From a virus, in the IMG/VR virus record IMGVR_UViG_3300042466_000518, positions 1-32,674 of that record: a DNA stretch of 32,674 bases. One strand, written 5' to 3'. The position numbers and the translations under genes are program-made. This document shows positions 9,101-31,761 of this stretch, in pieces. Each line of letters opens with the position of its first letter. The stretch's first letter is position 1. The notes under the pieces are model-generated. The model was given only the letters and a program-made list of their open reading frames with translations, did not search any database and had not been told where the DNA came from.

Positions 9101-10093
9101 GCGATTGCCAATGCGTGTTCCGCTAATAGGGGCTGCTGTGCCACGGACGTACAAGCCACGGAAGTCTGCGTCTGTCAGGCTTGGGGCAGAGTTGACCACC
9201 AGATCAACAGAGATGCCGTAAGTGGCTGATGCAAAGAATACGCGCCTGTTACCTGCTGTGCCTGTGGTGGACAGCGTGCCGTTAATGGTTTGTTGGGCGG
9301 AAAAATTAACTGCGGTTACACTTGCTGAATTTCTAGCGGCTACAGCAATATTATTAAATGTATTTGCGCCGTTTATGGTATGTGTACCTGCCGAAATACT
9401 TGTAAAAATAAAATTGTAATACGTTAACCCTGCGCAATCACATACTGCCCCCGTCGAGGGCGTTGTAAATGTAGACGTGCCAGCATTAAGCGTAATGCTG
9501 GTATTTGTCATGTTGAAAACACCTCCACTTACACCTACAGAAAACGTAATGGTAGAAGCGTTTAAATTTAAGGTTCTTGCTAATACTCCGTTAGAGGTAA
9601 ATGTTCCGCAAGTAATGGAGTAATTTCCAGCAGATGAAGTATCGAACGTCCCTGCTAAGATTGCAAGCGAGGATGATGTAGCCGTTGTTGTTAATGCGCT
9701 TCCAAGCGTCCACCCGCCACCAACGCCGTTAAAAATTATACGGCCCGCAATAGAGGTTCCGTTAGTTGTTACCGTCCTACCAGTGGTGGTAGACGAAAAC
9801 GTAATCACGGCTGAAGAACTCCACACCGTTCCCGCCAGCAGCGTCATGGAGCCGCGAATTTCAAGCGTAGGCGATGCTCCTGTAGCAAACGTCACCGTAC
9901 CTGCTGACACCGTGATGTCCAGACAGGCCAATGCGCCCGTCATGGTGACGGTGTAGGTTCCCGCTTGGTCAAAGAATACGCTATCCGCTACGGTCGGGAC
10001 AGACGCACCACTACCCCCGCCGGAGGTAGCAGACCAGTTTGTAGTGCTGCTTGTGTTCCAAGTACCCGCACCACCAACCCAAAATCTATCCAT
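3152..10093 (-). CDS. Giant 2,313-residue repeat fibre / adhesin
   Basis: This is the longest gene in the window. Three nested repeat zones are visible. (1) Residues 1-~1,720 form about five units of ~345 residues, with heads near residues 1, 344, 680, 1,028 and 1,373. A head reads [FY]WVGGxGxWxSxTxW or TVYxxxTGSQxWS, then PxxxDxAxF and xxLRT, followed by Thr/Ser/Gly-rich beta strands as in beta-helix adhesins. (2) Residues ~1,730-2,250 are about 26 units of 20 residues, consensus IxETATGTDxxxA. (3) The last ~60 residues are five 11-residue units, WxxVNDxQTxx. The ATG at 10093 has GGAG 7 bases upstream, inside the C-terminal codons of the preceding HNH gene (8-base overlap). It is probably a long side or tail fibre or surface adhesin; a depolymerase active site is not visible. 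Confidence 0.85.
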   Translation of the reverse strand: MDRFWVGGAGTWNTSSTTNWSATSGGGSGASVPTVADSVFFDQAGTYTVTMTGALACLDITVSAGTVTFATGASPTLEIRGSMTLLAGTVWSSSAVITFSSTTTGRTVTTNGTSIAGRIIFNGVGGGWTLGSALTTTATSSSLAILAGTFDTSSAGNYSITCGTFTSNGVLARTLNLNASTITFSVGVSGGVFNMTNTSITLNAGTSTFTTPSTGAVCDCAGLTYYNFIFTSISAGTHTINGANTFNNIAVAARNSASVTAVNFSAQQTINGTLSTTGTAGNRRVFFASATYGISVDLVVNSAPSLTDADFRGLYVRGTAAPISGTRIGNRGECRGITFDAPKIVYANLVLSSFSENIWATSSGGTPSLVNFPLPQDTAIINNGSGGSGFSIGFNINYIPTLDMSLRTTALSFSFGNTTTAYGNFVAGSGVTFSGSNSVTFSGGTTQTITSAGKTFTCPITIDTYGGTVQLADALNIGSQQLTVTNGTFTTAGYAVTGGTFLSSNSNVRTINLGASTLNFSNNNAFTFANSTNLAFNAGTSQLNHNFGTLGGAFAGGGLTFYNLSFTNTGSQTHSITGENTFNNLAFTAPASAGLMGCTIGSNQTINGTLTCAGASAVRRIFLRSGTIGTPRTLTVNAISATDCDFRDINLAGAASGASPTRAGDCGGNTGITFPAAKTVYWNLTGSQNWSSTGWSPGSGGTPDINQFPLAQDTAVFDDTGSVTGTITINAAWNIGTFDASLRTSAMTLTTSTNTLAVYGDWKFGTGVTSSSSSGEIQFSRNATQIITSNGVQFGCPVRISHPLGNVQLADALSLGATRTLTIGTGSVAGGTFDAGVYNVTVGLVNCQSTGFNLKMGSGTWTLSGTGSVWNMAAIPVITASTSTIVLSNTATSARTFAGGGLYYNKLTIGGATGTSTLSIANGDTFGEITSTKTVAHTITFPSATTTTIGKWAVTGTVGNIVTIESNNPTSAFILNIAGPANSGIDYLSVRDCTIATTSPGEFYVGANSTNVSGNTRVVFTATPAPRTLYWVGGTGNWSSTTKWDTTSGGGGGAAIPTSLDAVIFNSLSNATAYTATIDAGVTLARCASFTMAGPASGNVTFAGSVGIAFHGNVSFAATGITRTYTGAMNWAGNSSYTFTTNGLTLASSCTVIGVDSTWALGSALNIGTAQFIVTYGTFSTSASNYTLTSSNIFSNNGNIRSINFNGSTITCSGTASNSLSFGNITNFTFTAGASQINLTATTAGISCTGLSFYNVSFTSAANTSIVIQGANTFNTLSFAGRTSVGITPVTFNADQTIGTLTLNAGTASAYRTFLASDTIGTQRTLNVTTLTAGAADIDFRDIAITGAAAPLTGTRFGDAKGNSGITFDAAKTVYFRATGSQVWGSSGSGSWSATSGGSADATQFPLAQDTAIFPAATYPVSGATATVNANYNIGTIDMSLRTTNTLTLATGTNAPQIYGNWINGTGTTLSGTGTMTFAGRGAQTITSAGKTFTQQLFINTLGGSVTLQDALATDAATTPALQLINGTFNANNYNVSCSGVNSTFTSVNSNVRTLAMGSGTWLIAGPGNSAWSTNTATNLTVTGTATINMVSASAKGFSGGGASYSGITLNQGGAGALTIFANNILKDITNTYSATGATTIALGTSTQTLTSPWTATGAATRVLTVSGTSAASPGTLIFSGAGTAANVDYLNISNVRAYDLLNEWYAGANSTNSGSLGWYFIAAGGTVYAVTITETGTGTDAITASVTLLGAISETGTGTDSIFGSFLFVGSVDETSTITDSNFAAFQPKANITETATGSDVESAILNAISLIAETATGSDTDSAKLTANSNLSETATGADTDSARMTAQSVIAELATITDAASARATLLAAVIEAATITDLSESIKGLFAYIIESVTATDSINAPGSTYNPSLNESATATDNIVALTVFVAQIVEATTAADVVAAFKSYFSAVLETASGADSVAAQFTAQSIIAESATGADAETTQLITRPSVIETATGTDADVGRIVFPGNIAESATAADTESAKYTTRPNIAETATGIDASSARATFRSSIIESSAVQDIVQAYLTTVGVITELATGADQVSALRALAAAISETASTTDTVAAKAIFQGILQELATAQDAVNAPGSTYSAPIVELATLLDAVLAKATFPVSLNETATGTETVQAAFIPYAQITETATITDAASALAAFAARTVESAYITDEVSPPGSIYNPVVLAVAQMLDQVSPPGSVYNAPVLESATIADSLIGGFLWIDVNDDQVANWGDINNVQTTTWLAVDDSQTTNWQNVNNTQTSGWTDVNDTQTPGWNPVLP
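3163..3345 (-). repeat. Five 11-residue Trp repeats at the fibre C-terminus
   Basis: Read on the minus strand, the end of the giant fibre repeats W, then about three residues, then V/I, N/D, D/N, x, Q, in exact 11-residue steps: WIDVNDDQVAN, WGDINNVQTTT, WLAVDDSQTTN, WQNVNNTQTSG, WTDVNDTQTPG. The final WNPVLP closes the protein. The period is 33 bp. Confidence 0.85.
3346..4908 (-). repeat. About 26 tandem 20-residue (60-bp) repeats in the giant fibre
   Basis: In translation the unit is [IVL]-x-E-[TS]-A-T-[GIA]-[TA]-D, then about 11 variable residues; examples are NITETATGSD, NLSETATGAD, NIAETATGID and VITELATGAD. I counted 26 units of 19-21 residues. Every few units one carries the linker APGSTYN or PPGSVYN. 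The repeats are diverged at DNA level, so this is an old protein array and not a recent DNA slippage array. Confidence 0.85.
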
Positions 10094-19052: not shown

Positions 19053-19511
19053 TTAAGTACCTTTACCGAAAGTGACCGTGGACTTACGTTCTTTAAACAT
19101 AGGCATCCTCGGATCATTCTCGCGCATGTAGGTGTTATCCACAGAGTTCATCTGAGCTTCCGCTTGTTTGCGGTAGTACTCATTACGTTGCCCTGTAAAT
19201 TCCACAGGTGTTTTGCAAAGCAACAGACCGCCGACTTCAATACTGTCTGGAAACTTACCATTGGTAGAACCAAACAAACGGATTTCGGGGTGGTCAGAAG
19301 CCCTGACGGGTTCCCAGCCTTCACGTAACTTTCCAGAAATGTTCGTGGCGTCGTCTTTACCTAACGATGCAATCCTGATCCAGCGAAACGCATAACCCTC
19401 TTCCGGATTGGGATCGGGCAGAAGTTGCGGTGGCATCCATTGTTTAGGACGCTCCACTTGTTCGCGTGTATCAAGTTCGCGTGTCATACGGTTAGATTTT
19501 TCCATTTTCAT
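19053..19511 (-). CDS. Conserved head-module protein, unknown function
   Basis: The protein has up to 152 residues. Two ATGs are close: 19511 overlaps the scaffold stop, and 19505 (MEKSNRMTREL) has a better distance from GAGG. Conserved-looking blocks are ERPKQWMPPQLLPDPNPEEG, YAFRWIRIASLGKDDATNIS, GKLREGWEPVRASDHPEI and VGGLLLCKTPVEFTGQRNEY. The C-terminus is an Asn/Arg/Lys-rich helix (YYRKQAEAQMNSVDNTYMRE). I recognise this family from the same location, between scaffold and decoration genes, in other aquatic phages, but know of no assigned role. It may help scaffold or prohead assembly. Confidence 0.72.
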   Translation of the reverse strand: MKMEKSNRMTRELDTREQVERPKQWMPPQLLPDPNPEEGYAFRWIRIASLGKDDATNISGKLREGWEPVRASDHPEIRLFGSTNGKFPDSIEVGGLLLCKTPVEFTGQRNEYYRKQAEAQMNSVDNTYMRENDPRMPMFKERKSTVTFGKGT

Positions 19512-20464
19512 TTCCTCATTTCTTCAGCAACCTTACGGGCGTACAGTTCCAACGGAACCCCCAACCGCTTGGCGAGATTCACCTGTGTCTGCGTAAGCAC
19601 GATCTTTTTAGGCGCTGTGCTACGGGTTGCAGGTGCAACTATGTTGGATTTAGTGCGTTGAGGTTTCGCATCAACGGACTCTTCGGCTCCAAACTGATCC
19701 GAGAATCTTTCCCTAATGTCAGCGTTGATACGTCGATAGTATTCATCACTGCCACTCGGAATTCCTTCGCTCACTAAGTCTTCATGCAAGCCTAGGGCAT
19801 AGGCTGTCATTCGCTTGTTGCTTCCAAACCACTGATTTTGGTCTTGCCATGCAAGTAGTTTTTCATCAACGGGCGCAGCTTTAGTGGGCTGTTGGGCGAT
19901 TTGTACAGGAGTTTCTTCTTCCTGTAAAGGGGTGGGTTTAAAATTATTTACTTTATCCGCACGAATCTTCGCAATAGTCAAGGCTTCTTGGGCCTCAACT
20001 AACTTATCAGAGTCGCCAGATTCATAAGCTTCTTTGTACATGCGCTTAGCGTTTTCTACTTCGCTAGACACTACTTTTTTAGCTTGTTCCAAGAGCGCAG
20101 CTTGATTTTGGTTAACAGAACCCTTGAGCTTTTTGTTCTCTTCCAGCACGGTTTGCGCAAGTTTAAGCGCCTCTTCTCTTTCACGTTCAGCCGTTTCTTT
20201 TGCGCGACGTTCTTCGTGATAACCTTTGGTAAAGTGCTTAATACGCTTCTGTACGCTCTCGTCGTACTTGGCCAGCTCTTCGTCCGTTACCTCTTTGGGA
20301 GGTTCAGCCATGGGCTTGCGACCACGGTCTTCAGGAGGTGTATCGTCTACAACCTCAATTTCTGGTTCGCTTTCACCTTCAACTTCAAAGTCAACTTTAT
20401 CGTCGGCCTTGGCGTCTTTAGCTTCAGCTTCGTCAGGGAACTTAAATTCGTCTTTTTCAGCCAT
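19508..20464 (-). CDS. Scaffolding-like acidic coiled-coil protein
   Basis: The protein has 318 residues. The N-terminus is highly acidic and disordered (KFPDEAEAKDAKADDKVDFE, then EPEIEVVDDTPPEDRGR). Residues ~65-170 form a long coiled coil (RIKHFTKGYHEERRAKETAE, REEALKLAQTVLEENKKLKG, ENAKRMYKEAYESGDSDKLV). The C-terminal end is basic (TQVNLAKRLGVPLELYARKV-AEEMRK), the normal capsid-binding end of scaffolds. This charge layout, its size and its position between portal and capsid genes define a scaffold, though the sequence itself has no fixed motif. A strong AAGGAG precedes the ATG at 20464. Confidence 0.8.
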   Translation of the reverse strand: MAEKDEFKFPDEAEAKDAKADDKVDFEVEGESEPEIEVVDDTPPEDRGRKPMAEPPKEVTDEELAKYDESVQKRIKHFTKGYHEERRAKETAEREREEALKLAQTVLEENKKLKGSVNQNQAALLEQAKKVVSSEVENAKRMYKEAYESGDSDKLVEAQEALTIAKIRADKVNNFKPTPLQEEETPVQIAQQPTKAAPVDEKLLAWQDQNQWFGSNKRMTAYALGLHEDLVSEGIPSGSDEYYRRINADIRERFSDQFGAEESVDAKPQRTKSNIVAPATRSTAPKKIVLTQTQVNLAKRLGVPLELYARKVAEEMRK

Positions 20465-23606: not shown

Positions 23607-25112
23607 TTAGTAGTACGCAGCTTTCTTGCTGCGGAAAAATCTCTCTTCTTCAGGCTCGTCGCTCGGTAAGCGAATAAACCCGCCTTGTCTGAACCGCATG
23701 AGCGCTAGTGTTGTTGAGTCAACCAAGTCATCATTTGTACCCGACGGAAAGTCGTTACATTCTTCAATAACTTCTCTAGCCCATCTGCGGTCCGGTGCAA
23801 ACACCACTCCTCCTTGGAACAGTGCAGAAACCGCGTTCACCCGTGCGATCTTATCTTGTCCTTTACCCGGAGTAAACTCTCCCACGGGCACGCCCATCCG
23901 TCTAAACTCTTGGTAAAGCGCCGAACCGTTGGACTTCTTCTCAACAATAAACACATCAGGCTCCCACTCTTTGTACTCCTCAAGCACCAAGGCTTTAAGG
24001 TCTGGGTACTCCAGTCGCTTCTTAATTGAGTTGAGCAAAATAATCGCGTAGTTGTTTGTCTCTTCGTTAAAGAACACACCCCACACAGTCAGAGCGTTAT
24101 AGTCAGCCCTGTTGTTAGATTCCTGCGCCGCGTCAAGACTCATAATCGTAAACTCGCACTGAGGCGGGTCGTCCTTTTCCCAAATCTGCCACCATTCGCG
24201 CTTAATAAGAGCGCCTTCCTCAGAGACGGGGTTCTGCATGTACTGGGCCTGCCAGTACCGTGGGTCCATACCCGCTTTTTTACCCAACAATTCTTCAATA
24301 GACCAGAACTCACCCCACAGCGGTTTGTCATTCAATATGGCAGGAAACTCAACAATCTCCCACTGGTCCACATCTTCCTCGCGGCCCATCTGGTTCACGA
24401 TCATTCCGGTCAAATCAAGTTTTGACCACCTTGTCATCACTATAATGATAGAGCCACCCGGCATAAGACGCTGCAAAGGGCCAGACTGAAACCACTCCCA
24501 AGCAGGAAGGAAAACGTCCGGTCGCCCAGTCTTAGCTTCTTGTTCAGAATGAGGGTCGTCAATGATAAATAAATCAGCGCCACGACCAGCAAGAGCACCT
24601 CCGACACCAATAGCAAAGTATTCTCCGTTGAAATTTGTACCCCAACGTGACGCAGACTTACTGTCAGCTTGCAATTCGATCTGCGGAAACACGTCCCGAT
24701 AGGCTTCAGAACCCACCAAATTACGCACTCTACGGCCAAAATTCACCGCCAAATCGGCAGTGTGGGAGGCCATAATGATCTTTTTATTAGGGTATTTACC
24801 TAGAAACCACGCTGGTGCAAGGTAAGAAATCATCTCAGACTTGCCGTGACGGGGAGCAATGTTCACAATAACCCGTCTTTTCTTGCCGTTGGCTATATCT
24901 TCAAAGATTTTGGCCAGTCTTTTGTGGTGTGGACCCACTTTATAGCCCGGATATACGTGGTCAATGAAGGTTAAGAAGTCATCTTTACCCACTTCCTGCA
25001 CAGATTCACTGTCGTACGTCCTCAAAAGCTCCAAAGTATGGATTTTTTGCTCCAACGGCATCGTTGGAAGCGCGTCTTTGATGGCTTTTAGCTGTTCAGG
25101 CGTTATCTTCAC
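23607..25112 (-). CDS. terL: Terminase large subunit (packaging ATPase-nuclease)
   Basis: The protein has 501 residues and a GTG start at 25112, with AAGG 9 bases upstream; the first internal Met (18) would leave a shorter N-terminus. The ATPase half carries a Walker A-like APRHGKS (86-92), Walker B LFIIDDPHSE (181-190, acidic pair 185-186), and the coupling motif MTRW (226-229). The nuclease half has D327 in MSLDAAQ, E391 in VEKKSNG and D461/D462/D465 in NDDLVDSTTLAL, the acidic residues of the RNase H-like terminase nuclease. It drives DNA translocation into the prohead and cuts the concatemer. It overlaps the small-subunit candidate by 17 bases and precedes the portal gene. Confidence 0.95.
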   Translation of the reverse strand: MKITPEQLKAIKDALPTMPLEQKIHTLELLRTYDSESVQEVGKDDFLTFIDHVYPGYKVGPHHKRLAKIFEDIANGKKRRVIVNIAPRHGKSEMISYLAPAWFLGKYPNKKIIMASHTADLAVNFGRRVRNLVGSEAYRDVFPQIELQADSKSASRWGTNFNGEYFAIGVGGALAGRGADLFIIDDPHSEQEAKTGRPDVFLPAWEWFQSGPLQRLMPGGSIIIVMTRWSKLDLTGMIVNQMGREEDVDQWEIVEFPAILNDKPLWGEFWSIEELLGKKAGMDPRYWQAQYMQNPVSEEGALIKREWWQIWEKDDPPQCEFTIMSLDAAQESNNRADYNALTVWGVFFNEETNNYAIILLNSIKKRLEYPDLKALVLEEYKEWEPDVFIVEKKSNGSALYQEFRRMGVPVGEFTPGKGQDKIARVNAVSALFQGGVVFAPDRRWAREVIEECNDFPSGTNDDLVDSTTLALMRFRQGGFIRLPSDEPEEERFFRSKKAAYY

Positions 25113-25665
25113 TGCGTATTACCTTGGCCTGTACATCAATTGTGCGTTTTTCCAGCTTAGCAAGCGTTTCAAGCAGCTCTTTTTCCACTTCTTCAAGGGA
25201 TTGCTGCTTATGAGTGACCTCAGTGCGCTTTTTAAATGCATCAACACCGTCAACATCACCCAACGCCTTGATTGCACCAAGCCTGACAGTACTGTTTGGG
25301 TTCTCTGTTTCGGCAACAAGCTTGTTTACCACGTACAGTTTAAAGTCTGCCAGCTCCCGCACAATCATGTGGTCGTACTCAGCCACCATACCGGCAAGAT
25401 ATGCAATGGTTTCGTTGGGGTAGTTAGCTAAATCAGGTGTTGTTTTATTAGCAACAACCTTTTCCATCAACTCAAGGGCTTGGCCTCGGTTCTCAGGGCT
25501 AGGCTCAATTGGTTTTCCGTTCAAATCAGAGATCATTTTGACCGTGCGTGCACGCATCTCAATCTCTTCCTTTGGGGAAAGAGGGGGCATAGCCTCGGTG
25601 GCTGAGGCTGGTAGCGGAATATCCGCTTCGACATTAGGCATCATCTGCATAAGAGGGAATCGCAC
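25096..25665 (-). CDS. Putative terminase small subunit
   Basis: The protein has up to 189 residues and is the first gene of the leftward module. The GTG at 25665 directly touches its AGGA, so internal ATGs at 25650, 25644 or 25641 are more likely starts. The sequence is helical: MPPLSPKEEIEMRARTVKMI, PSPENRGQALELMEKVVANK, YDHMIVRELADFKLYVVNKL, and STVRLGAIKALGDVDGVDAF followed by a charged coiled-coil end (KKRTEVTHKQQSLEEVEKEL). No helix-turn-helix is obvious. The call rests mainly on the position directly before terL with a 17-base overlap, and on size and helicity. Confidence 0.55.
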   Translation of the reverse strand: MRFPLMQMMPNVEADIPLPASATEAMPPLSPKEEIEMRARTVKMISDLNGKPIEPSPENRGQALELMEKVVANKTTPDLANYPNETIAYLAGMVAEYDHMIVRELADFKLYVVNKLVAETENPNSTVRLGAIKALGDVDGVDAFKKRTEVTHKQQSLEEVEKELLETLAKLEKRTIDVQAKVIRSEDNA

Positions 25666-25985
25666 TCCTATAAAAGTCAGGTACTAGCCGCTTAATCGCT
25701 AGCTTTCGAAAAAAGTCTTTGCACAGCTTTCCCTGAGAAATAAATATACCACATATTTGTAAAGGGTGGTAGGAATCCTACCCGGGGGGTGTTCCTATAT
25801 TGAGGGGGTGGGGTAAACCCTAGACGCTTTTATTTTTACTTGGCGTTGGCTTAGAAATGCTTGGGGTACTTGGAATGGTTGGAGAAATACGTGGTGGTTT
25901 GTGTAAGTCTTAGAGTATAGGGGAACACGGGAGTCCCAAAGTCTCTTGTGGGGGTCGGGTATGGGTGGGTCGACCCCGCCAGAAC

Positions 25986-26015
25986 TTTACTTTTAACCAT
26001 GGGATCAGCTATAAC
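25986..26015 (+). promoter_or_regulatory. Early sigma70-like promoter, type A copy 1
   Basis: TTTACT (25986-25991) and TATAAC (26010-26015) are 18 bp apart. The block GAACTTTACTTTTAA and GATCAGCTATAAC matches two further copies at 26596 and 27439. Transcription would start at about 26,022, leaving a ~40-base leader for the gene at 26061. Confidence 0.8.
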
Positions 26016-26023
26016 AGAACCAT

Positions 26024-26043
26024 GCAGAGCAATAGTGCTGTGC
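26024..26043 (+). other. Leader hairpin of early unit 1
   Basis: GCA-G-AGCA, loop ATAG, TGCT-G-TGC form a 7-bp stem with one G-G mismatch, directly after the predicted start of transcription. The other two type A leaders also carry hairpins at the same place. Confidence 0.45.
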
Positions 26044-26060
26044 TGTAACAGGAGAGATAA

Positions 26061-26249
26061 ATGTTTAAAGCATTATGGGTTTGGTTGACGCATTACAAGG
26101 TTGTAGTGCAGTGGGAAGACAAGTTGTGTGTTCACTATGCATACACAATGAACGAAGCGCTGAGTTGGTCAGCTCAGTATCGTACCGACAACACGACAGT
26201 GCTGATCGGCATCAGGGGCAAGCTAGTCGCGGCACGCGGCCAGTGGTAA
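26061..26249 (+). CDS. Small early protein, unknown function
   Basis: The protein has 62 residues. It begins MFKALWVWLTHYKVVVQWED, continues AYTMNEALSWSAQYRTDNTT, and ends VLIGIRGKLVAARGQW. It is mixed alpha/beta with many aromatic residues; the first 14 residues are hydrophobic but short for a membrane helix. AGGAGA is 6 bases before the ATG. It is the first gene of the rightward module, has its own promoter ~45 bases upstream and its own terminator 3 bases after the stop. Early position and small size fit a host-takeover protein, but nothing in the sequence shows this. Confidence 0.7.
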   Translation: MFKALWVWLTHYKVVVQWEDKLCVHYAYTMNEALSWSAQYRTDNTTVLIGIRGKLVAARGQW

Positions 26250-26252
26250 ACC

Positions 26253-26276
26253 GAGGGGCTTCGGCCCCTCTTCTTT
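26253..26276 (+). terminator. Intrinsic terminator of early unit 1
   Basis: GAGGGGC, loop TTCG, GCCCCTC, then TTCTTT. This 7-bp perfect GC-rich stem starts 3 bases after the stop of the first early gene. The next gene at 26293 has no visible promoter of its own, so this terminator is probably leaky. Confidence 0.85.
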
Positions 26277-26292
26277 AACTAAGGAGAGAAAC

Positions 26293-26493
26293 ATGAGAGC
26301 AACGAATGAAGCTTTGCGCACTGTGCGTCAGCATGGTGTAGAGCACACACTTTGGTGTATGAGTTTGAAATCCGCTGAAGTAGCGCAGTTGCGTGTGAGT
26401 GATCCCGATTTGCATGAACAAGTGAAGCGGGTACGTAACGCGATGAACCGACAACTTGCGATCAACACGCGCAATGTTAGCCGGGAGGATTAA
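26293..26493 (+). CDS. Small basic early protein, unknown function
   Basis: The protein has 66 residues, almost wholly helical: MRATNEALRTVRQHGVEHTL, WCMSLKSAEVAQLRVSDPDL, HEQVKRVRNAMNRQLAINTR. It is strongly basic and may bind nucleic acid. AAGGAGAG precedes the ATG at the right distance. It sits between two terminators (26253-26276 and 26496-26515) without a promoter in the 16-base gap, so it must depend on readthrough from the promoter at 25986. No family was recognised. Confidence 0.7.
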   Translation: MRATNEALRTVRQHGVEHTLWCMSLKSAEVAQLRVSDPDLHEQVKRVRNAMNRQLAINTRNVSRED

Positions 26494-26495
26494 CC

Positions 26496-26515
26496 AAAAG
26501 GGCCTCGGCCCTTTT
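26496..26515 (+). terminator. Intrinsic terminator after the second early gene
   Basis: AAAAGGGC, loop CTCG, GCCCTTTT form an 8-bp perfect stem whose own 3' arm supplies the U-run. By symmetry it would also work on the opposite strand. The three-copy intergenic element starts inside its T-run. Confidence 0.8.
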
Positions 26516-26594
26516 GATACCAGTTATTTGTCGTCGCGGGCGTTAAGCGTGCGCGAGTCAAGCGGATCACCTAGCGATTCACACCCCGCTGAAA
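26513..26594 (+). repeat. Intergenic element copy 1 (TTTGATACCAGTTAT family)
   Basis: The 15-base block TTTGATACCAGTTAT is followed by a GC-rich arm with the pattern GTC-x-xCGCG-x-GCGT-x-AAG-x-GCGT, then a degenerate inverted repeat (TTCA, TGAA) that touches the type A promoter. The element is 82 bp; element plus promoter is 113 bp, exactly as in copy 2. Confidence 0.8.
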
Positions 26595-26595
26595 C

Positions 26596-26625
26596 TTTAC
26601 TTTAAGGCCTAGGGTCAGCTATAAC
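26596..26625 (+). promoter_or_regulatory. Early sigma70-like promoter, type A copy 2
   Basis: TTTACT (26596-26601), 18-bp spacer, TATAAC (26620-26625). The surrounding GAAACTTTACTTTAAGG and GGGTCAGCTATAAC are nearly identical to copy 3. It drives the first paralogue gene at 26688. Confidence 0.85.
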
Positions 26626-26631
26626 TATTAC

Positions 26632-26659
26632 ATCAGGTAGACAATTCGGTCTGTCTGAT
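26632..26659 (+). other. Leader hairpin of the first paralogue gene
   Basis: ATCAGGTAGAC (26632-26642) pairs with GTCTGTCTGAT (26649-26659) over 11 positions with two G-U pairs, closing a 6-base loop. It stands at the predicted 5' end of the transcript, like the hairpin before the second paralogue, although the sequences differ. Confidence 0.7.
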
Positions 26660-26687
26660 ATTTCAAAATGCTTTATTAGGAGATATT

Positions 26688-27299
26688 ATGTCTAAAGCAA
26701 AAAACCAAGCCGCCCCTTCATTGGGTTCTGTCAACGTCACTTCAATGAAGGACGCGGGTTATCAGTCAGCTATCAGCGACGAACGCAAAGATAGCGTTGC
26801 CCGTTATGTCTATTCACAATGCCCTAACTTCACCAACGAAGTTAGCGACGAAGTTAAAACCCAGCTTCGTGCGGGTTGGGCGCTTCGTTGGCAAGAACTG
26901 AACCCCGCTGTCAGCTATAACGATAGTTGGGTTCCAGTAGAGAACGGCTCTTATGTAATGACTGTTGACGTTTGCTTCAGCTACAGTCAGCAAGCCTTCG
27001 GTCAGTTAAAAGAAGCTGACCCAGTCAAGCACGGCGTTATTAAGGGTATTCGTGATGCCTTTAATAAGTATGCTTCTAATCGAATGGCTGACTTGAAAAC
27101 GGCTGTTCGTAAGGTAGAGAACGAAGGCAAGCCTAAAGTGAAAGCGCCTACCAAGGGTTTCATTCAGTACATTGATGAAACATTCAAGGCTGTCAAGGCC
27201 AGAGCTAAGACAGCGAAAGCAAGGGGTGATGATTCAGCCCCCGATGAAGTTAAATTGCGCATGGCCATCGATGCCTTTCACAATACTCTAAGCAAGTAA
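26688..27299 (+). CDS. Early protein of unknown family, paralogue A
   Basis: The protein has 203 residues. The start follows AGGAG by a few bases (MSKAKNQAAPSLGSVNV). It is about 60% identical by eye to the next gene. The most conserved blocks are DEVKTQLRAGWALRWQELNP (residues ~54-73), SYSQQAFGQLKEADPVKHGV and IKGIRDAFNKYASNRMADLK, then VENEGKPKVKAPTK; the C-terminal helix is EVKLRMAIDAFHNTLSK. It is mainly helical, basic at the end, with no signal peptide, membrane segment or catalytic motif that I recognise. It has its own promoter, leader hairpin and strong terminator, so high early expression is likely. Possible roles are DNA binding or host modification; neither is shown. Confidence 0.8.
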   Translation: MSKAKNQAAPSLGSVNVTSMKDAGYQSAISDERKDSVARYVYSQCPNFTNEVSDEVKTQLRAGWALRWQELNPAVSYNDSWVPVENGSYVMTVDVCFSYSQQAFGQLKEADPVKHGVIKGIRDAFNKYASNRMADLKTAVRKVENEGKPKVKAPTKGFIQYIDETFKAVKARAKTAKARGDDSAPDEVKLRMAIDAFHNTLSK

Positions 27300-27310
27300 C
27301 ATTGCACCGA

Positions 27311-27344
27311 CCTAGTCAGCCGAAAGGTTGGCTAGGTTTTTTTT
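27311..27344 (+). terminator. Strong intrinsic terminator after paralogue A
   Basis: CCTAGTCAGCC, loop GAAA, GGTTGGCTAGG (11 pairs, two G-U), followed by eight T. It is the strongest terminator by eye in the window. Confidence 0.92.
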
Positions 27345-27355
27345 CGCCTGTAGCT

Positions 27356-27437
27356 TTTGATACCAGTTATGTGTCCCCGCGCGCGTCAAGGGCGTACATG
27401 CCAAGCGCACTGTTTACCGTTTCAGGCCACGCTGAAA
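27356..27437 (+). repeat. Intergenic element copy 2 (TTTGATACCAGTTAT family)
   Basis: Same order as copy 1: TTTGATACCAGTTAT, a GC-rich arm (GTCCCCGCGCGCGTCAAG), then a perfect inverted repeat TTTCAG (27420-27425), 6 bp, CTGAAA (27432-27437) one base before the -35 element of the promoter. Length is 82 bp. Confidence 0.85.
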
Positions 27438-27438
27438 C

Positions 27439-27468
27439 TTTACTTTAAGGTCTAGGGTCGGCTATAAC
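27439..27468 (+). promoter_or_regulatory. Early sigma70-like promoter, type A copy 3
   Basis: TTTACT (27439-27444), 18-bp spacer, TATAAC (27463-27468). The inverted repeat TTTCAG/CTGAAA abuts the -35 element, a good place for a repressor or activator. It drives the second paralogue. Confidence 0.85.
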
Positions 27469-27475
27469 TTAAACA

Positions 27476-27498
27476 CCAGATGACGAGGTGTTGTCTGG
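27476..27498 (+). other. Leader hairpin of the second paralogue gene
   Basis: CCAGATGAC (27476-27484) pairs with GTTGTCTGG (27490-27498) over nine positions with two G-U pairs and a 5-base loop, near the predicted transcript 5' end. Confidence 0.65.
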
Positions 27499-27521
27499 AT
27501 TAACGCTTACTTGGAGATACC

Positions 27522-28115
27522 ATGAGCAAAGCAACAAAACCCCAAGAGACAATCGTCTCATCTTTCAAAGATGCCGCATATCAATCGGCAAGGTCTAGCG
27601 AAACAATGGCCACCATTGCTCGTTTCGTTTATGCGCAGTGCCCTACATTCTGCGAATCACAACCAGATGAGGTCAAAACTCAACTGCGCATGGGATGGGC
27701 TTTGAGATGGCAAGAGTTAAACCCTGCCACTACATTCGACAATGAATGGAAACCAAACCCCAAGGGAGGTTTTAACAATAGCATTGATTACTGCTTGTCA
27801 TACTCTCAACAAGCATTTGGACAACTCAAAGAGGCAGACCCCATCAAGCACGGTGTCATCAAAGCCGTGCGTGATAACTTTAACAAGTATTGCTCTAATC
27901 GTCTGGCAGACCTCAAAGTCGCTGTGCGCAGAGTTGAAAACGAGGATAAGCCCAAGGTCAAAGCCCCTACAAAACAATTCGAGGATTTCGCCAAAGAGTT
28001 GTTTATCACAATGAAAGCCCGAGCAAAGACTGCCATCGCTCGAGGCGACACAACTGCACCAAACGAGATCAAATTGCGCCAAGCAATTGATGCGTTTAAC
28101 AATGCTTTGAAGTAA
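27522..28115 (+). CDS. Early protein of unknown family, paralogue B
   Basis: The protein has 197 residues and is the tandem sister of the gene at 26688-27299. It keeps DEVKTQLRMGWALRWQELNP, LSYSQQAFGQLKEADPIKHG, VIKAVRDNFNKYCSNRLADL and VENEDKPKVKAPTK. It differs in the N-terminus and in the segment before SYSQQ (NPKGGFNNSIDYC), and gains extra cysteines. GGAG lies 6-7 bases before the ATG. Codons differ widely between the sisters, so the duplication is not recent. Each copy has a private promoter, leader hairpin and terminator, meaning the whole expression unit was duplicated. The two proteins may form a hetero-oligomer or have split roles. Confidence 0.8.
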   Translation: MSKATKPQETIVSSFKDAAYQSARSSETMATIARFVYAQCPTFCESQPDEVKTQLRMGWALRWQELNPATTFDNEWKPNPKGGFNNSIDYCLSYSQQAFGQLKEADPIKHGVIKAVRDNFNKYCSNRLADLKVAVRRVENEDKPKVKAPTKQFEDFAKELFITMKARAKTAIARGDTTAPNEIKLRQAIDAFNNALK

Positions 28116-28122
28116 GCAGACC

Positions 28123-28154
28123 ATGCACCGTCAGTTTAGGCTGGCGGTGCATTT
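28123..28154 (+). terminator. Terminator-like hairpin after paralogue B
   Basis: ATGCACCGTCAG, loop TTTAGG, CTGGCGGTGCAT (12 pairs, one G-U), followed by only TTTGA. The stem is strong but the U-tract is short. The third intergenic element begins in that tract. Confidence 0.8.
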
Positions 28155-28237
28155 GATACCAGTTATAAGTCCCCGCGTGCGTGAAGTGCGTGCGCGCGAG
28201 CCAAGGCGATCAACTACCGTTTCAGGGGTGCGTGAAA
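28152..28237 (+). repeat. Intergenic element copy 3, without promoter
   Basis: TTTGATACCAGTTAT is again followed by the GC-rich arm (GTCCCCGCGTGCGTGAAG) and by the inverted repeat TTTCA (28220-28224), 8 bp, TGAAA (28233-28237). The type A promoter does not follow; the DnaA box and the TTCCAA array start ~45 bp further on. Confidence 0.85.
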
Positions 28238-28282
28238 TGCATAAACAAACAACAGCCATTACCTATCTCAAGCAACGCGTCC

Positions 28283-28291
28283 TGTGGATAA
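28283..28291 (-). promoter_or_regulatory. Perfect DnaA box
   Basis: The plus strand reads TGTGGATAA, the exact complement of the bacterial DnaA consensus TTATCCACA. It stands at the left border of the TTCCAA array in non-coding DNA. One more exact match exists at 19135-19143, inside a gene, so one match alone is not proof. Confidence 0.55.
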
Positions 28292-28300
28292 CTTTATTTG

Positions 28301-28817
28301 TTCCAAAATTCCAATTAGCGATTCCAAAGTTCCAGCCCAGTTGGAATCTTGGAATCTGACCAAAAAGCAAATTCCAATTTGGAATTCCAGTATTTGCCTC
28401 TTATGTAAAGTTGTTCCAATCTGGAACACAAAATTGGAATCTTGTAAGTGCTTGATTTTAAACAAGAAAACACCACTTTTGACCTAAAAATTCCAAAATT
28501 CCAGTTTTTTAAAATAGGACAACCGGTTGGAGAAATAATTTGGAAGAGCAAGACTGTGTCAGCAAGTGCAACGCATAGCAATATGTGGTTTTTCAGCTAT
28601 TTTCTCATTTTGCCCGACGTCCCTGCAAATCGCTGGAATCTTGGAATTTTGGAATAAATATAATTTTTTTTTTTTTTTACTACTACTACTACTCTACTCT
28701 TTATATTCATTTCATAACCTTAGTAGTACTTTTCCAGATTCCAATTCACCCCAATTTGTTCCAAAAACCCGTTCCAATAACCCCCCAAAAAGTCTAACTG
28801 TACATATCCAATTCCAA
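28301..28817. repeat. TTCCAA/TTGGAA hexamer array, candidate replication origin
   Basis: Ten TTCCAA (28301, 28309, 28322, 28372, 28414, 28491, 28739, 28759, 28772, 28812), seven TTGGAA (28341, 28349, 28379, 28434, 28540, 28641, 28649) and six TTCCAG/CTGGAA (28330, 28385, 28421, 28499, 28633, 28732) fall within ~520 bp. Neighbouring starts are 8 bp apart in six cases. Well under one exact TTCCAA/TTGGAA copy would be expected by chance. The stretch has no credible gene, is AT-rich, and contains the T-run and TAC repeats. This looks like an iteron-type binding array, most simply a replication origin. Confidence 0.6.
28664..28692 (+). repeat. T15 run and (TAC)5 microsatellite
   Basis: Fifteen T (28664-28678) run directly into five TAC units (28678-28692). 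An AGTAGTA at 28722-28728 can pair back with the TACTACT units. It stands inside the hexamer array and could be an easily melted DNA-unwinding site. Confidence 0.75.
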
Positions 28818-28871
28818 TCCCTGTACACTACGCCCCAAGCCCCGCACCTCAACAAAGTCACCCCACACCCC

Positions 28872-28900
28872 TATGTTTATAAGTAAAGTTATGTTACAAT
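28872..28900 (+). promoter_or_regulatory. Promoter type B copy 1 (extended -10)
   Basis: The extended -10 TGTTACAAT ends at 28900; a weak TATGTT (28872-28877) lies 17 bp upstream. About 50 bases around it, including GTAAAGTTATG, TACAAT and GTCGGGGA, are shared with the second copy at 30247-30275. It drives the operon starting at 29038. Confidence 0.75.
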
Positions 28901-28978
28901 TGAGTCTGAGTCGGGGAATAAGCGCCTGCAAACCTCTCCAACTCAAGCCTTTGCCAACCCCAAGACGACCAACAATCG

Positions 28979-28996
28979 TTTCACGGGTGGGTGAAA
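28979..28996. promoter_or_regulatory. Inverted-repeat candidate operator in the type B leader, copy 1
   Basis: TTTCAC (28979-28984), GGGTGG, GTGAAA (28991-28996), 18 bp in all, preceded by CG. The same element occurs at 27420, 28220 and 30320. It is in the 5' leader, 40 bases before the start codon. Confidence 0.65.
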
Positions 28997-29037
28997 TCAA
29001 GTTAGTTCAATTCAGTTCAATTTAGTTAGGAGTCATC

Positions 29038-29382
29038 ATGAAAGCTAAGTTTGTCGTCTCTCCCTCCCTCGTTGCCAAAATGCAACGTGAGATGCTCGAC
29101 CATCTCCCCCGTTCTATCCGCAAGACATTGCGCATTACAACCCCCAAGGCACAACCCATTGCCAAAACACCCATCGACACAGACCAAATCGTGTCTGACT
29201 GGTTAGCGATTCACGACCCCCTGAACGACAGAGACTATCTCTGCACAAACACAGTCGACCCCGATATGGACATAACCTCCCACCAAGAATTTGGTGACAT
29301 CGACAACGAGTACGAGGGTCTGACAGTTGTCAGTATGGGCAAAGACACCCGCCGTTGGCTCAAGGGTTACAACATCCTCTGA
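29038..29382 (+). CDS. Early protein, unknown function
   Basis: The protein has 114 residues. A basic N-terminal half (MKAKFVVSPSLVAKMQREML, DHLPRSIRKTLRITTPKAQP) is followed by an acidic half (DRDYLCTNTVDPDMDITSHQ, EFGDIDNEYEGLTVVSMGKD) and a short end TRRWLKGYNIL. AGGAG is 5 bases before the ATG. It is the first gene of the operon 29038-30222, behind promoter type B, and lies just after the candidate origin. I do not recognise a family. A replication role would fit the location but has no motif support. Confidence 0.7.
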   Translation: MKAKFVVSPSLVAKMQREMLDHLPRSIRKTLRITTPKAQPIAKTPIDTDQIVSDWLAIHDPLNDRDYLCTNTVDPDMDITSHQEFGDIDNEYEGLTVVSMGKDTRRWLKGYNIL

Positions 29383-29403
29383 ACAAACAACAAAGGAAAC
29401 ATC

Positions 29404-29553
29404 ATGAAGATTGAATTCAAAGATGTGCCAGTCGGTGCATCATTCATCAGCAACGGAAACTTCTGCACAAAGGTATCAACACGCACAGCAGTGCTTGTCC
29501 AGTACATGCGGACTTTCCATTTCAAATCTAACGAAATAGTGGAGGTAGCGTAA
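29404..29553 (+). CDS. Tiny early protein (49 residues), beta-rich
   Basis: A 49-codon frame starts at ATG 29404 after AAGGAAA and ends with TAATG overlapping the next start. It reads MKIEFKDVPVGASFISNGNF, then CTKVSTRTAVLVQYMRTFHF, then KSNEIVEVA. The pattern FKD-x-PxGxxFxxNGxxxxKxSTRTA resembles tiny phage proteins with an SH3-like strand set that I know from other aquatic phages, with no assigned role. Coupling with the next gene and good codon structure make it real despite its size. Confidence 0.75.
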   Translation: MKIEFKDVPVGASFISNGNFCTKVSTRTAVLVQYMRTFHFKSNEIVEVA

Positions 29554-29816
29554 TGAAACATTACATTGGTGAAGTCGAGACTTACTTCGGTGAAAGCGAG
29601 GTCAGTACGATGATTAAGTTCAAGACTGATTCACACCCCGATGAATACCTAGATAAAGTTGCTTCAGACTTCTGGGGCATCGACGGTTCGGAGGCCGGTG
29701 ACGGCACAGTCAGCATGTATGACTTCGGTGATCGCATGACAAGCGCGGGTCGTTGGCAAGAGATTGATGCCGACATGTTCAACAAACTAACTTTAATTGT
29801 GGAGATAGTAAGATGA
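29553..29816 (+). CDS. Small acidic early protein, unknown function
   Basis: The protein has 87 residues. It opens MKHYIGEVETYFGESEVSTM, continues FKTDSHPDEYLDKVASDFWG, TVSMYDFGDRMTSAGRWQEI and ends NKLTLIVEIVR. It is acidic, mixed alpha/beta and soluble. The start shares one base with the stop of the 49-codon gene, and its own end overlaps the next ATG as ATGA. No family is recognised. It is part of the type B operon of small proteins. Confidence 0.7.
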   Translation: MKHYIGEVETYFGESEVSTMIKFKTDSHPDEYLDKVASDFWGIDGSEAGDGTVSMYDFGDRMTSAGRWQEIDADMFNKLTLIVEIVR

Positions 29817-30016
29817 AAGTAAGAGACATACGCAAGCGCAGGGCAAAGAGCAAGTACCAATCCAATGGTGCGTTCAGCTTCTTACGCCTGAGTCAGACTA
29901 AGCGTTGCCGTACCTACGAGGAGGGATGCTTTATCTGTGACCCATGGCACTTCTACGACACGCACAAGCGGTTCCCCACATGGCACGAATTGATGGATGA
30001 AGGAGTAATGAAATGA
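29813..30016 (+). CDS. Small basic Cys-containing early protein
   Basis: The protein has 67 residues. The N-terminus is very basic (MKVRDIRKRRAKSKYQSNGA). The middle holds C32, C39 and C42 with nearby His (CRTYEEGCFICDPWHFYDTH), which could form a small metal site, though it is not a standard zinc finger. The end is TWHELMDEGVMK. It overlaps both neighbours by 4 bases. The charge suggests nucleic-acid binding; the function is unknown. Confidence 0.68.
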   Translation: MKVRDIRKRRAKSKYQSNGAFSFLRLSQTKRCRTYEEGCFICDPWHFYDTHKRFPTWHELMDEGVMK

Positions 30017-30222
30017 CTGACCAACAGCAATGTTATTCGATCCATGTGCGCGTGATGGATGTGTATGGCAGAAGAGTTGCTTACCCTGTGTGCGACAAGG
30101 CGAAGGTGTTTGCCGCTATTGCAGGGACAACGTCTCTTACTGAGACAACGCTCAAATGTATACGCAAGCTCGGGTTCGACATACATGTTGTGCCACAAGA
30201 ACCTTTAACGCTAGACCTGTGA
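30013..30222 (+). CDS. Small early protein, unknown function
   Basis: The protein has 69 residues. It reads MTDQQQCYSIHVRVMDVYGR, RVAYPVCDKAKVFAAIAGTT, SLTETTLKCIRKLGFDIHVV. It appears to be a small alpha/beta protein (strand, helix, helix, strand). It starts in an ATGA overlap with the preceding gene and is the last of this operon; promoter type B copy 2 follows within 30 bases. No terminator was seen after it. Confidence 0.68.
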   Translation: MTDQQQCYSIHVRVMDVYGRRVAYPVCDKAKVFAAIAGTTSLTETTLKCIRKLGFDIHVVPQEPLTLDL

Positions 30223-30246
30223 CTTAACAAAGTTGGGGTAAATCCC

Positions 30247-30275
30247 TATGTTTATATGTAAAGTTATGGTACAAT
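30247..30275 (+). promoter_or_regulatory. Promoter type B copy 2 (extended -10)
   Basis: TATGTT (30247-30252), 17-bp spacer, extended -10 TGGTACAAT ending at 30275. The flanks, GTAAAGTTATG before and GTCGGGGA after, match copy 1. It drives the operon from 30370. Confidence 0.75.
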
Positions 30276-30319
30276 GGAATCTGTGTCGGGGAGTAACTCG
30301 ACACAGCCATCACTTACCG

Positions 30320-30337
30320 TTTCACGGTACGGTGAAA
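30320..30337. promoter_or_regulatory. Inverted-repeat candidate operator, perfect copy in the type B leader
   Basis: TTTCAC, GGTACG, GTGAAA: arms of 6 bp around a 6-bp spacer, preceded by ACCG as in the copies at 27420 and 28220. It lies between the promoter and the ribosome site of the gene at 30370. Confidence 0.68.
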
Positions 30338-30369
30338 TTCAATTCAGTTTTATTCAGTCAGGAGATAGT

Positions 30370-30651
30370 ATGGGACAGTTCAAAAACATTGGCATTGTTC
30401 TGCGTCAAATCGCAGACGACACCAACGTACATCCATCCATCCGCGATGCGATGCGCAACACATCCGTAAAGCAAGCACCTGTCGACAAAGTGTATTTGCT
30501 TCTGTGCGACGGCAATGTGACCGACGTATTCACCGACAAAGACATGGCGATGTACGACCTGCATACATGCATCAAGGCAGACGAGGCAGAGGGTCTTGAC
30601 CATGAGTGGAAAGTCATTGTCCGTCAGCTCACAACCACAACCCTTCCATGA
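30370..30651 (+). CDS. Early protein, unknown function
   Basis: The start is ATG 30370, 5-6 bases after AGGAGA; the frame is open further upstream but that part is the promoter and leader. The 93 residues read MGQFKNIGIVLRQIADDTNV, HPSIRDAMRNTSVKQAPVDK, VYLLLCDGNVTDVFTDKDMA, then a helix and VIVRQLTTTTLP. The middle VYLLLCDGNVTDVF and DMAMYDLHTCIKADEA form strand-helix elements, as in small phage proteins of unassigned role. Its stop overlaps the zinc protein start by 4 bases (ATGA). First gene of the operon leading to the AAA+ ATPase. Confidence 0.7.
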   Translation: MGQFKNIGIVLRQIADDTNVHPSIRDAMRNTSVKQAPVDKVYLLLCDGNVTDVFTDKDMAMYDLHTCIKADEAEGLDHEWKVIVRQLTTTTLP

Positions 30652-30852: not shown

Positions 30853-31761
30853 ATGAACTTTGAACTTCAACAACCCAACCACATCATCTCACTTGCAACG
30901 TCAGCACTTGTCGTATGCGTGGATGTCAACGTGTGGACTGCAACGAAACAGGATCGCGCCATCTCTAACGAGGTGACAACATCTAAGAAAGCCTCTGCTG
31001 ATGCAGGCAAGTTCACCAAGAACTTACTCTCCGATTCACCCGACCACAAGGCGCTACTGAACTATCGGCAGACCGTGTATAACTGGCTTCAGAGGTCGAC
31101 ATACGACTGGGCGGGCTCAATGCGTTTGCTTCCAACGATCAACCTTGAGAAGTTCAAGAAAGAGTACGCCCAACATGAGGCCGACTTCAAAGCTCTGCTC
31201 GAGAAGTTCATTACTGCATACCCGCAGATTGTCAGCGATGCGGCGTTCAAGCAAGGCGATATGTTTAATCGTTCAGAGTACCCTGAACCTGAAGAAGTTC
31301 GCACCAAGTTCCGCATGCGTCTGCATGTACAGAAAGTACCGCAGGCCGACTTTCGTTCGTCTGTGAGCGAAGCATTGGCAGAAGATTTGAAGAACCACTA
31401 CGAGCGTCAAACGCAAGAGATCATCAACGCTGTGATGGACGATGCATCCGAGCGTCTTGTAGAGATTGCTTCACGGTTAGCCAACGCATGTACCGAGGCA
31501 ACGCCCGATGAAGATGGCAAGGTAAGGCGCAAGAAGATCTACGACAGTACTGTGAGCCAAGCCAAGGAGATTTGCAAGACCATCGAGAACTTCAACCTGA
31601 CAAACAACAAGGCATTGTCACAAGCAGTAGTAGACCTTAGCTTTGCGCTTGACGGTATCAGCACAGAGGATTTGCGTGAGAGTTCTTATACCCGAAGCGT
31701 AGTCAAAGAGAATGTCGATGACATGTTATCTAAATTTAAACCCATAAGGAGTTTTGTATGA
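30853..31761 (+). CDS. DUF3150-like helical protein, partner of the AAA+ ATPase
   Basis: The protein has 302 residues. The N-terminal strand region ALVVCVDVNVWTATKQDRAI is followed by KKASADAGKFTKNLLSDSPD and YRQTVYNWLQRSTYDWAGSM. Then come long helices (INLEKFKKEYAQHEADFKAL), a central RTKFRMRLHVQKVPQ, and a coiled coil (ALAEDLKNHYERQTQEIINA). This layout and its place beside a MoxR-type ATPase fit DUF3150, a family known from phages and plasmids without an assigned function. The family name is from memory. GGGAGG precedes the ATG. The end overlaps the next gene by 4 bases. Confidence 0.7.
   Translation: MNFELQQPNHIISLATSALVVCVDVNVWTATKQDRAISNEVTTSKKASADAGKFTKNLLSDSPDHKALLNYRQTVYNWLQRSTYDWAGSMRLLPTINLEKFKKEYAQHEADFKALLEKFITAYPQIVSDAAFKQGDMFNRSEYPEPEEVRTKFRMRLHVQKVPQADFRSSVSEALAEDLKNHYERQTQEIINAVMDDASERLVEIASRLANACTEATPDEDGKVRRKKIYDSTVSQAKEICKTIENFNLTNNKALSQAVVDLSFALDGISTEDLRESSYTRSVVKENVDDMLSKFKPIRSFV

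Follow-up and report, generated by a model that had tools for sequence, protein, structure and literature searches.

A short-iteron array as the probable replication origin of a family of uncultured phages, with a DUF927 primase-helicase as candidate initiator

We find that a half-kilobase array of short repeated sites in an uncultured freshwater phage is very probably a replication origin, and that its reader is probably a DUF927 protein encoded by the phage. The array lies in IMG/VR phage record IMGVR_UViG_3300042466_000518, a fragment of 32,674 bases that is taken here over its full length and that we call the window. The sequence-only reading of this region had suggested either the phage origin or the loading site of a phage-encoded binding protein. 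That proposal gains support from the presence of the array in all 31 relatives that have the corresponding stretch, from site counts far above those of shuffled sequence, and from a nearby GC-skew minimum, the last being confounded by gene direction.

In the mechanism that we propose, the array region would serve as the replication origin of a phage of ~62-65 kb, with an initiator in which a PrimPol is joined to an MCM-like DUF927 helicase of the type known from SaPIbov1 Rep and SCCmec Cch. We infer that this initiator would bind TTCCA sites through a C-terminal winged helix and that tandem sites on an 8-bp step, facing each other across a spacer of ~130 bp, would assemble the helicase, perhaps as two rings. 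IHF would bend the origin DNA, with DnaA as a possible further host factor, and melting would occur in the AT-rich tract next to the inverted tandem sites; the primase and the phage family-A polymerase would then begin synthesis. The missing part of the window's own genome presumably encodes the initiator.

A conserved array between early genes

The late genes of the window occupy the minus strand and begin with terminase and portal (terminase large subunit, 23607-25112), and the late arm also holds a very long ORF of 2,313 aa at 3152-10093. The early genes lie on the plus strand, and the array sits between two of them that have no assigned family: one of 197 aa on its left (27522-28115), with homologues beside the array in relatives, and one of 114 aa on its right (29038-29382). 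A weakly DUF3150-like protein is encoded further along the same strand (30853-31761). Three longer relatives measure 62,438 bases (G007), 64,506 bases (G008), and 70,742 bases (G003); the end of G003 repeats its own first part, giving a unit of ~63.9 kb. A DNA similarity search with 27500-29500 against annotated phages gave no match, an RNA family search over 25600-30500 returned none at E<=0.1, and a literature search showed no paper on the array or the phage family among the titles and abstracts listed.

Several other repeats occur in this early region. The genes at 26688-27299 and 27522-28115 are tandem paralogues with 71% DNA identity over 182 nt; they have the same repeated leader, and ~200-aa homologues flank the array in relatives. 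The leader, which contains a TTTCA...TGAAA stem-loop, is found at 28206-28241, 28965-29000, and 30306-30341, upstream of early genes and on both sides of the array. A promoter-like block at 28848-28921 is 80% identical to one at 30223-30296, and each precedes an early gene.

Between positions 28283 and 28817, there are 17 exact TTCCAA/TTGGAA hexamers, whereas shuffling these 535 bases 2,000 times with dinucleotides preserved yields 1.17 on average and never more than 7; chance cannot account for the 17. The same half-kilobase contains 17 of the 46 hexamers in the 32.7-kb record. As the sequence-only reading had claimed, six one-base variants add to the exact copies, yielding 23 TTCCA pentamers in all, and six direct 8-bp steps can be located (28301-28309, 28322-28330, 28342-28350, 28491-28499, 28634-28642, and 28642-28650). 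The array proper spans 28301-28817 with a core that is mostly RTTCCA(R); its 23 pentamer sites lie in both orientations, many of them on a single 8-bp grid. Its left cluster (28301-28439), which we aligned with 10 relatives, combines direct and inverted sites, several on the 8-bp grid, and its right cluster lies at 28732-28817 (plus strand). In an unbiased hexamer scan, the array is the strongest cluster of the window and of G003, and the strongest clusters of G007 (AGAACA) and G008 (ATTCCA) fall at the corresponding place; at the mixed locus L076, a different hexamer cluster ranks above the array. An alignment of the window with 10 close relatives shows no sign of a conserved gene in this stretch because indels there have lengths not divisible by three, in agreement with the earlier remark that it holds no credible gene.

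We also looked for the array in related contigs. All 11 close relatives that include the stretch keep 15-18 hexamers, a T14-T16 run, and (TAC)5; three further matches in this search fall short of the array stretch. Beyond these close kin, we examined 52 of 80 terminase loci, omitting the 28 in which the terminase match starts within 1.8 kb of the locus start. In 31 relatives, the sequence extends more than 4.3 kb upstream of the terminase, and every one of them has an array at the same place, its 700-bp stretch starting 3.0-4.7 kb from the terminase; an array was also seen in 4 of the 21 shorter loci (<=4.3 kb upstream). The 31 arrays contain 9-21 sites per 700 bp; outside the arrays, the motif does not exceed 7 in these loci, and when read backwards it does not exceed 6. 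At least 10 sites are present in 29 of them; the remaining two, L058 and L080, have 9 and were typed T by hand.

The core of the array differs by lineage. Group logos give (A/G)TTCCA(A/G) in 15 arrays (C type), TGTTCTA in 14 (T type), TGTTCCA in four, and TGTTCYA, a mixed form, in two. When 41 further DUF927 records were scanned for TTCYANNNTTCYA, 15 had the pattern and 26 lacked it; seven of these 26 were inspected. G062 lacks the pattern and does hold a T-type array, and G029 and G064 were read over their first 40,000 bases only. Four records (G030, G039, G040, and G047) end within the interval between terminase and DUF3150, so that the array stretch is missing; repeats perhaps stop assembly there.

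Architecture of the presumed origin

The two main array types have the same skeleton: a same-direction pair of sites ~8 bp apart, a spacer of 95-175 bp (often 122-146 bp), two or three opposed sites ~8 bp apart that abut an AT-rich tract, and a right cluster. In the window, the first half of the skeleton is the tandem pair TTCCAAAATTCCA on the plus strand (28491-28503, 8-bp step), and the second half is a set of three inverted tandem sites on the minus strand (28634-28654, 8-bp steps) that directly adjoin the AT tract. The core skeleton is found in 21 of 25 representatives compared to 0.0 expected from shuffles, the representatives having been chosen by hand to avoid near-copies and still including kin. 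By group, it is present in 15/15 RTTCCA arrays, 11/14 TGTTCTA arrays, 3/4 TGTTCCA arrays, and 0/2 mixed arrays.

The least stable 80 bp of the whole record lie at 28653-28732, which we take as the presumed unwinding element. In all four records analyzed for duplex stability (the window, G003, G007, and G008), the least stable 80 bp fall in the AT tract, the window and G003 being close kin and the four therefore not independent. Two simple repeats noted earlier, a T15 tract (28664-28678) and (TAC)5 (28678-28692), are indeed present on the plus strand of this element and conserved in all 11 close relatives; (TAC)3 or longer occurs in 5 of the 25 representatives. The DnaA-trios of oriC are a trinucleotide repeat adjoining a DnaA box. 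We rejected this reading of (TAC)5: the repeat lies ~390 bp from the DnaA box and is absent in 20 of 25 representatives.

Sites resembling those of two host proteins accompany the array. The IHF-like site (WATCARNNNNTTR) lies on the minus strand at 28445-28457, and TAAGTNNTTGATTT occurs here and nowhere else in the record; in G003, G007, and G008, it likewise has a single copy, located at the array. The IHF-like site is found in 18/25 representatives compared to 3.0 expected, and a tighter pattern, GTAAGTNNTTG, also in 18/25 compared to 0.25 expected. Within the spacer of the skeleton, a block at 28560-28569 (plus strand) reads CAGCAAGTGC, and CAGCNAGTGC occurs in 10 of 25 representatives. AAGTG, the letters reported for the SCCmec Cch2 iteron, is part of both this block and the IHF-like one, which may be coincidence.

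The perfect 9-bp DnaA box that had been reported is present (TGTGGATAA, 28283-28291, minus strand), but it makes a weak origin element, since it moves or is absent among relatives. It belongs to a lineage-specific segment of ~59 bp that 3 of 10 aligned relatives share and 7 lack; among the close relatives, 3 of 11 have no perfect DnaA box and four have one elsewhere. A perfect box is found in 9 of 25 representative arrays, compared to 0.25 expected, and is missing from the other 16. From this distribution, we read the DnaA box as an optional host helper that is probably accessory at most. The cumulative GC skew has its minimum ~2-3.3 kb from the array in all three long relatives, near the place anticipated for an origin; this agreement proves little because the genes diverge from the same place.

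A candidate initiator and alternative readings

The early arm of G003 encodes a family-A DNA polymerase (PolA), an SNF2-type helicase, a PD-(D/E)XK exonuclease, and a DUF927 protein that matches primase/helicase PHROGs. A DnaB_C domain was found in none of 12 records, some of them fragments, while all 14 control genomes gave a signal, 10 of them above the cut-off. The DUF927 protein is present in 15 of the 25 records searched, the other ten being fragments of at most 33 kb. The window fragment itself has no DUF927 gene and its close relatives carry one, among them G001, whose early gene beside the array is 100% identical to that of the window. The DUF927 gene and the array are ~17-20 kb apart in G001, G003, G007, and G008, the distance in G003 being counted across its repeated end.

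Profile searches matched the DUF927 protein to SCCmec Cch (5dgk, E 7.5e-17, residues 505-930, including the C-terminal part) and to the SaPIbov1 initiator (8tch, E 2.5e-12, residues 506-824). Its predicted structure (mean pLDDT 83) aligns to 5dgk over residues 380-946 (Z 29.3, rmsd 7.2, 480 aligned) and to 8tch over residues 385-951 (Z 26.6, rmsd 6.6, 466 aligned), and residues 1-196 of the model align to the phage PrimPol 6zp9 (Z 18.9, rmsd 2.5, 171 aligned). In the model, the secondary structure of residues 839-939 reads with moderate confidence as a winged helix; a helix-turn-helix and hairpin predicted at 885-939 (block pLDDT 62-87) align to the Cch C-terminus. A distant homologue with 24% identity is encoded at 42239-45322 of MN988472.1, where the label 'putative integrase' is apparently a misannotation.

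We compared the array type of each genome with trees of its proteins. Counting changes between C and T arrays, with mixed arrays excluded, the matched records require one change on the DUF927 tree (15 rows) and one on the DUF3150 tree (14 rows) compared to three on the terminase and four on the portal tree (15 rows each, the portal rows of G007 and G018 being filled only 43% and 18%). Both array groups are supported in the DUF927 tree (100/99) and, with values of 76/83 and 88/83, in the DUF3150 tree; G010, with its mixed array, is placed next to the C group. Larger row sets, which differ between genes, give six changes for the terminase (42 rows), six for the portal (35), four for the presumed small terminase (41), four for the 200-aa early protein (39, with long branches), and two for DUF3150 (30). 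In these larger sets, L083, L085-L088, L090, and L091 were typed C by hand and L041 was labeled C by count; one of the two DUF3150 changes corresponds to TGTTCCA sites in a T-side lineage, seen on later reading. The DUF927 and DUF3150 trees thus need fewer changes than the terminase and portal trees, and the array appears to be linked more closely to the replication arm than to the packaging arm.

Within the DUF927 protein, the region that differs most between array types includes the predicted DNA-binding segment. Among 9 C and 8 T proteins, residues 880-940 are 60% identical within C, 54% within T, and 28% between types, and other parts drop less. These residues were chosen from the model, and the divergence test was run after the per-domain table had been seen; in this sliding-window test (one near-duplicate dropped, mixed and TGTTCCA rows excluded), they rank 2 of 898 for excess between-type divergence, rank 1 being the segment that starts one residue further on. 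Type-specific columns make up 5 of 61 in this region compared to 15 of 885 elsewhere (Fisher p 0.007, uncorrected for phylogeny). In the wing, the residues are QM in the RTTCCA group (9/9 proteins) and RL in the T, TGTTCCA, and mixed groups (11/11), the latter including G062, whose T-type array is known only from a hexamer count. The match between array and DUF927 could reflect inheritance of the early arm as a unit, because C and T separate only once, deep in the DUF927 tree.

The same comparisons bear on other readings of the array. It could be an origin whose iterons are bound not by the helicase but by a 111-aa XRE-type HTH protein that recruits it, in the way of an accessory initiator. 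The gene for this protein lies just upstream of DUF927 in all 15 typed records (for example L128:1110-1442), and the protein is present in 99 of 102 sequences searched, a set that includes duplicate records and pieces without that flank. Its model (pLDDT 90) contains an HTH, and 23 of 50 family members give weak matches to a DNA-binding PHROG (best E 6.2e-05). However, its structure matches are generic (best Z 7.2), and its HTH barely separates the array types, with 64% identity within C, 66% within T, and 55% between, whereas DUF927 residues 880-940 do separate them. We set this protein aside as the type-specific reader on the basis of this weaker separation, and consider a role of this kind unlikely. 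A multi-site operator for early transcription, in place of an origin, seems to us improbable. The position between early genes, the palindromic site pairs, and the promoter-like repeat that follows the array would suit an operator, but where that repeat recurs there are no iterons nearby, and an operator does not account for the easily melted duplex, the IHF-like site, or the opposed tandem sets. A sigma-70 consensus scan found 1 site compared to 1.9 in shuffles, which says nothing for a promoter.

Two further readings are very improbable. The distance of the array from the terminase in all 31 relatives would fit a packaging (pac) site bound by the small terminase, here the gene next to the terminase, assigned by position and lacking a family match. 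Yet array type conflicts with the terminase and portal trees, on which ground we rejected this reading: changes number six on the terminase and four on the neighboring gene compared to two on DUF3150 in the larger sets, and three on the terminase compared to one on either DUF3150 or DUF927 in the matched records. A centromere-like partition site bound by a ribbon-helix-helix protein, which we give equally little credence, would suit the 8-bp grid and the two orientations; 8-bp repeats are known for ribbon-helix-helix proteins. We rejected it since a partial scan of early proteins against Pfam gave no match to ParA or ribbon-helix-helix families.

Against the reading of the array by DUF927 itself stand the distance of the initiator gene from the array, the four changes needed for the 200-aa gene adjoining the array, and the absence of the skeleton in 4 of 25 representatives. 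A wider reading is possible, and we advance it tentatively and with more doubt than belief: the whole family of free phages would share a movable-code origin, in which an MCM-like, PrimPol-fused initiator of the SaPI type reads pentamers on an 8-bp step and two tandem sets, facing each other across a fixed spacer, load a pair of helicase rings. Changes in the wing of the winged helix at the C-terminus would have altered the code (RTTCCA, TGTTCTA, TGTTCCA) on at least two occasions, and sites for the host proteins IHF and DnaA would stand in for one another as helpers.

Cultured relatives and comparison with known origins

Pseudomonas phage Rollin, a distant cultured relative, encodes a DUF927 protein that is 27% identical. 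Its unannotated first 1.4 kb contain 8 of the genome's 9 TTGCATA sites, three of them in 9-bp steps beside AT-rich DNA; these sites were picked by eye, and 8 copies compare to 7 for the best 7-mer of shuffles. AAGGTAG palindromes are found there too and are commoner than TTGCATA (9 copies). The same 1.4 kb include the two least stable 80-bp stretches and the genome's only GTAAGTNNTTGAT, which matches the IHF-like motif. Rhizobium phage RHph_TM3_14A has a similar gene order, and its two least stable stretches lie in the unannotated interval 19355-20125, where k-mer counts revealed no array. Together, the two phages support the place and the melting element, and the iterons only partly.

If this reading is right, a group of uncultured phages gains a concrete origin with a named candidate for its initiator, a helicase type of staphylococcal islands is connected to free phages, and there is a pointer to where the origins of Rollin and RHph_TM3_14A may lie. 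The reading would also offer a natural series of iteron codes with their probable readers, opening origin recognition by self-loading helicases to domain swaps.

How does this presumed origin compare with known ones? Iteron plasmid origins such as those of pSC101 and R6K combine iterons of ~17-22 bp with an IHF site, a DnaA box, and an AT-rich tract. The phage region has iterons, an IHF-like site, and an AT-rich tract, with a perfect DnaA box in the window and in 9 of 25 representatives. Unlike in iteron plasmid origins of the Rep_3 type, the core of its sites is 5-7 bp on an 8-bp step, not 17-22 bp, and no Rep of the iteron-plasmid type was matched among the proteins scanned. The alpha protein of phage P4 is a primase-helicase that binds short iterons in both orientations, and the proposed initiator here, compared with it by description only, would resemble it in both respects. 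In SV40 T antigen and papillomavirus E1, the helicase itself reads short sites by an AT tract through an N-terminal DNA-binding domain. The phage initiator would likewise be a helicase reading short sites adjoining an AT tract, whereas its putative DNA-binding domain is C-terminal and its sites are others.

PMC7581432 names SV40 T antigen and papillomavirus E1 as a functional parallel, and states that the C-terminal domain of SaPI Rep recognizes iterons, that Cch, a relative of SaPIbov1 Rep, includes DUF927, and that Cch2, from another helicase family, needs AAGTG iterons. Our closest comparison is with SaPIbov1 Rep and its ori together with SCCmec Cch: the DUF927 initiator is homologous (to Cch in the helicase and C-terminal part, to Rep in the helicase), its predicted fold matches both, and multiple short iterons are found here too. 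SaPI origins, too, have an AT-rich region. An initiator helicase of the same family in relatives (15 of 25 records) and short iterons are both features of a SaPI-type DUF927 replicon. In contrast to SaPIs, the phages are free phages of ~62-65 kb with an initiator fused to PrimPol, their sites point both ways and are accompanied by IHF-like and, in some cases, DnaA sites, and their presumed origin lies 17-20 kb from the initiator gene as opposed to beside the rep gene. The phage origin would work in the manner of a SaPI replicon, yet we do not class it as one, because it does not lie directly downstream of the rep gene.
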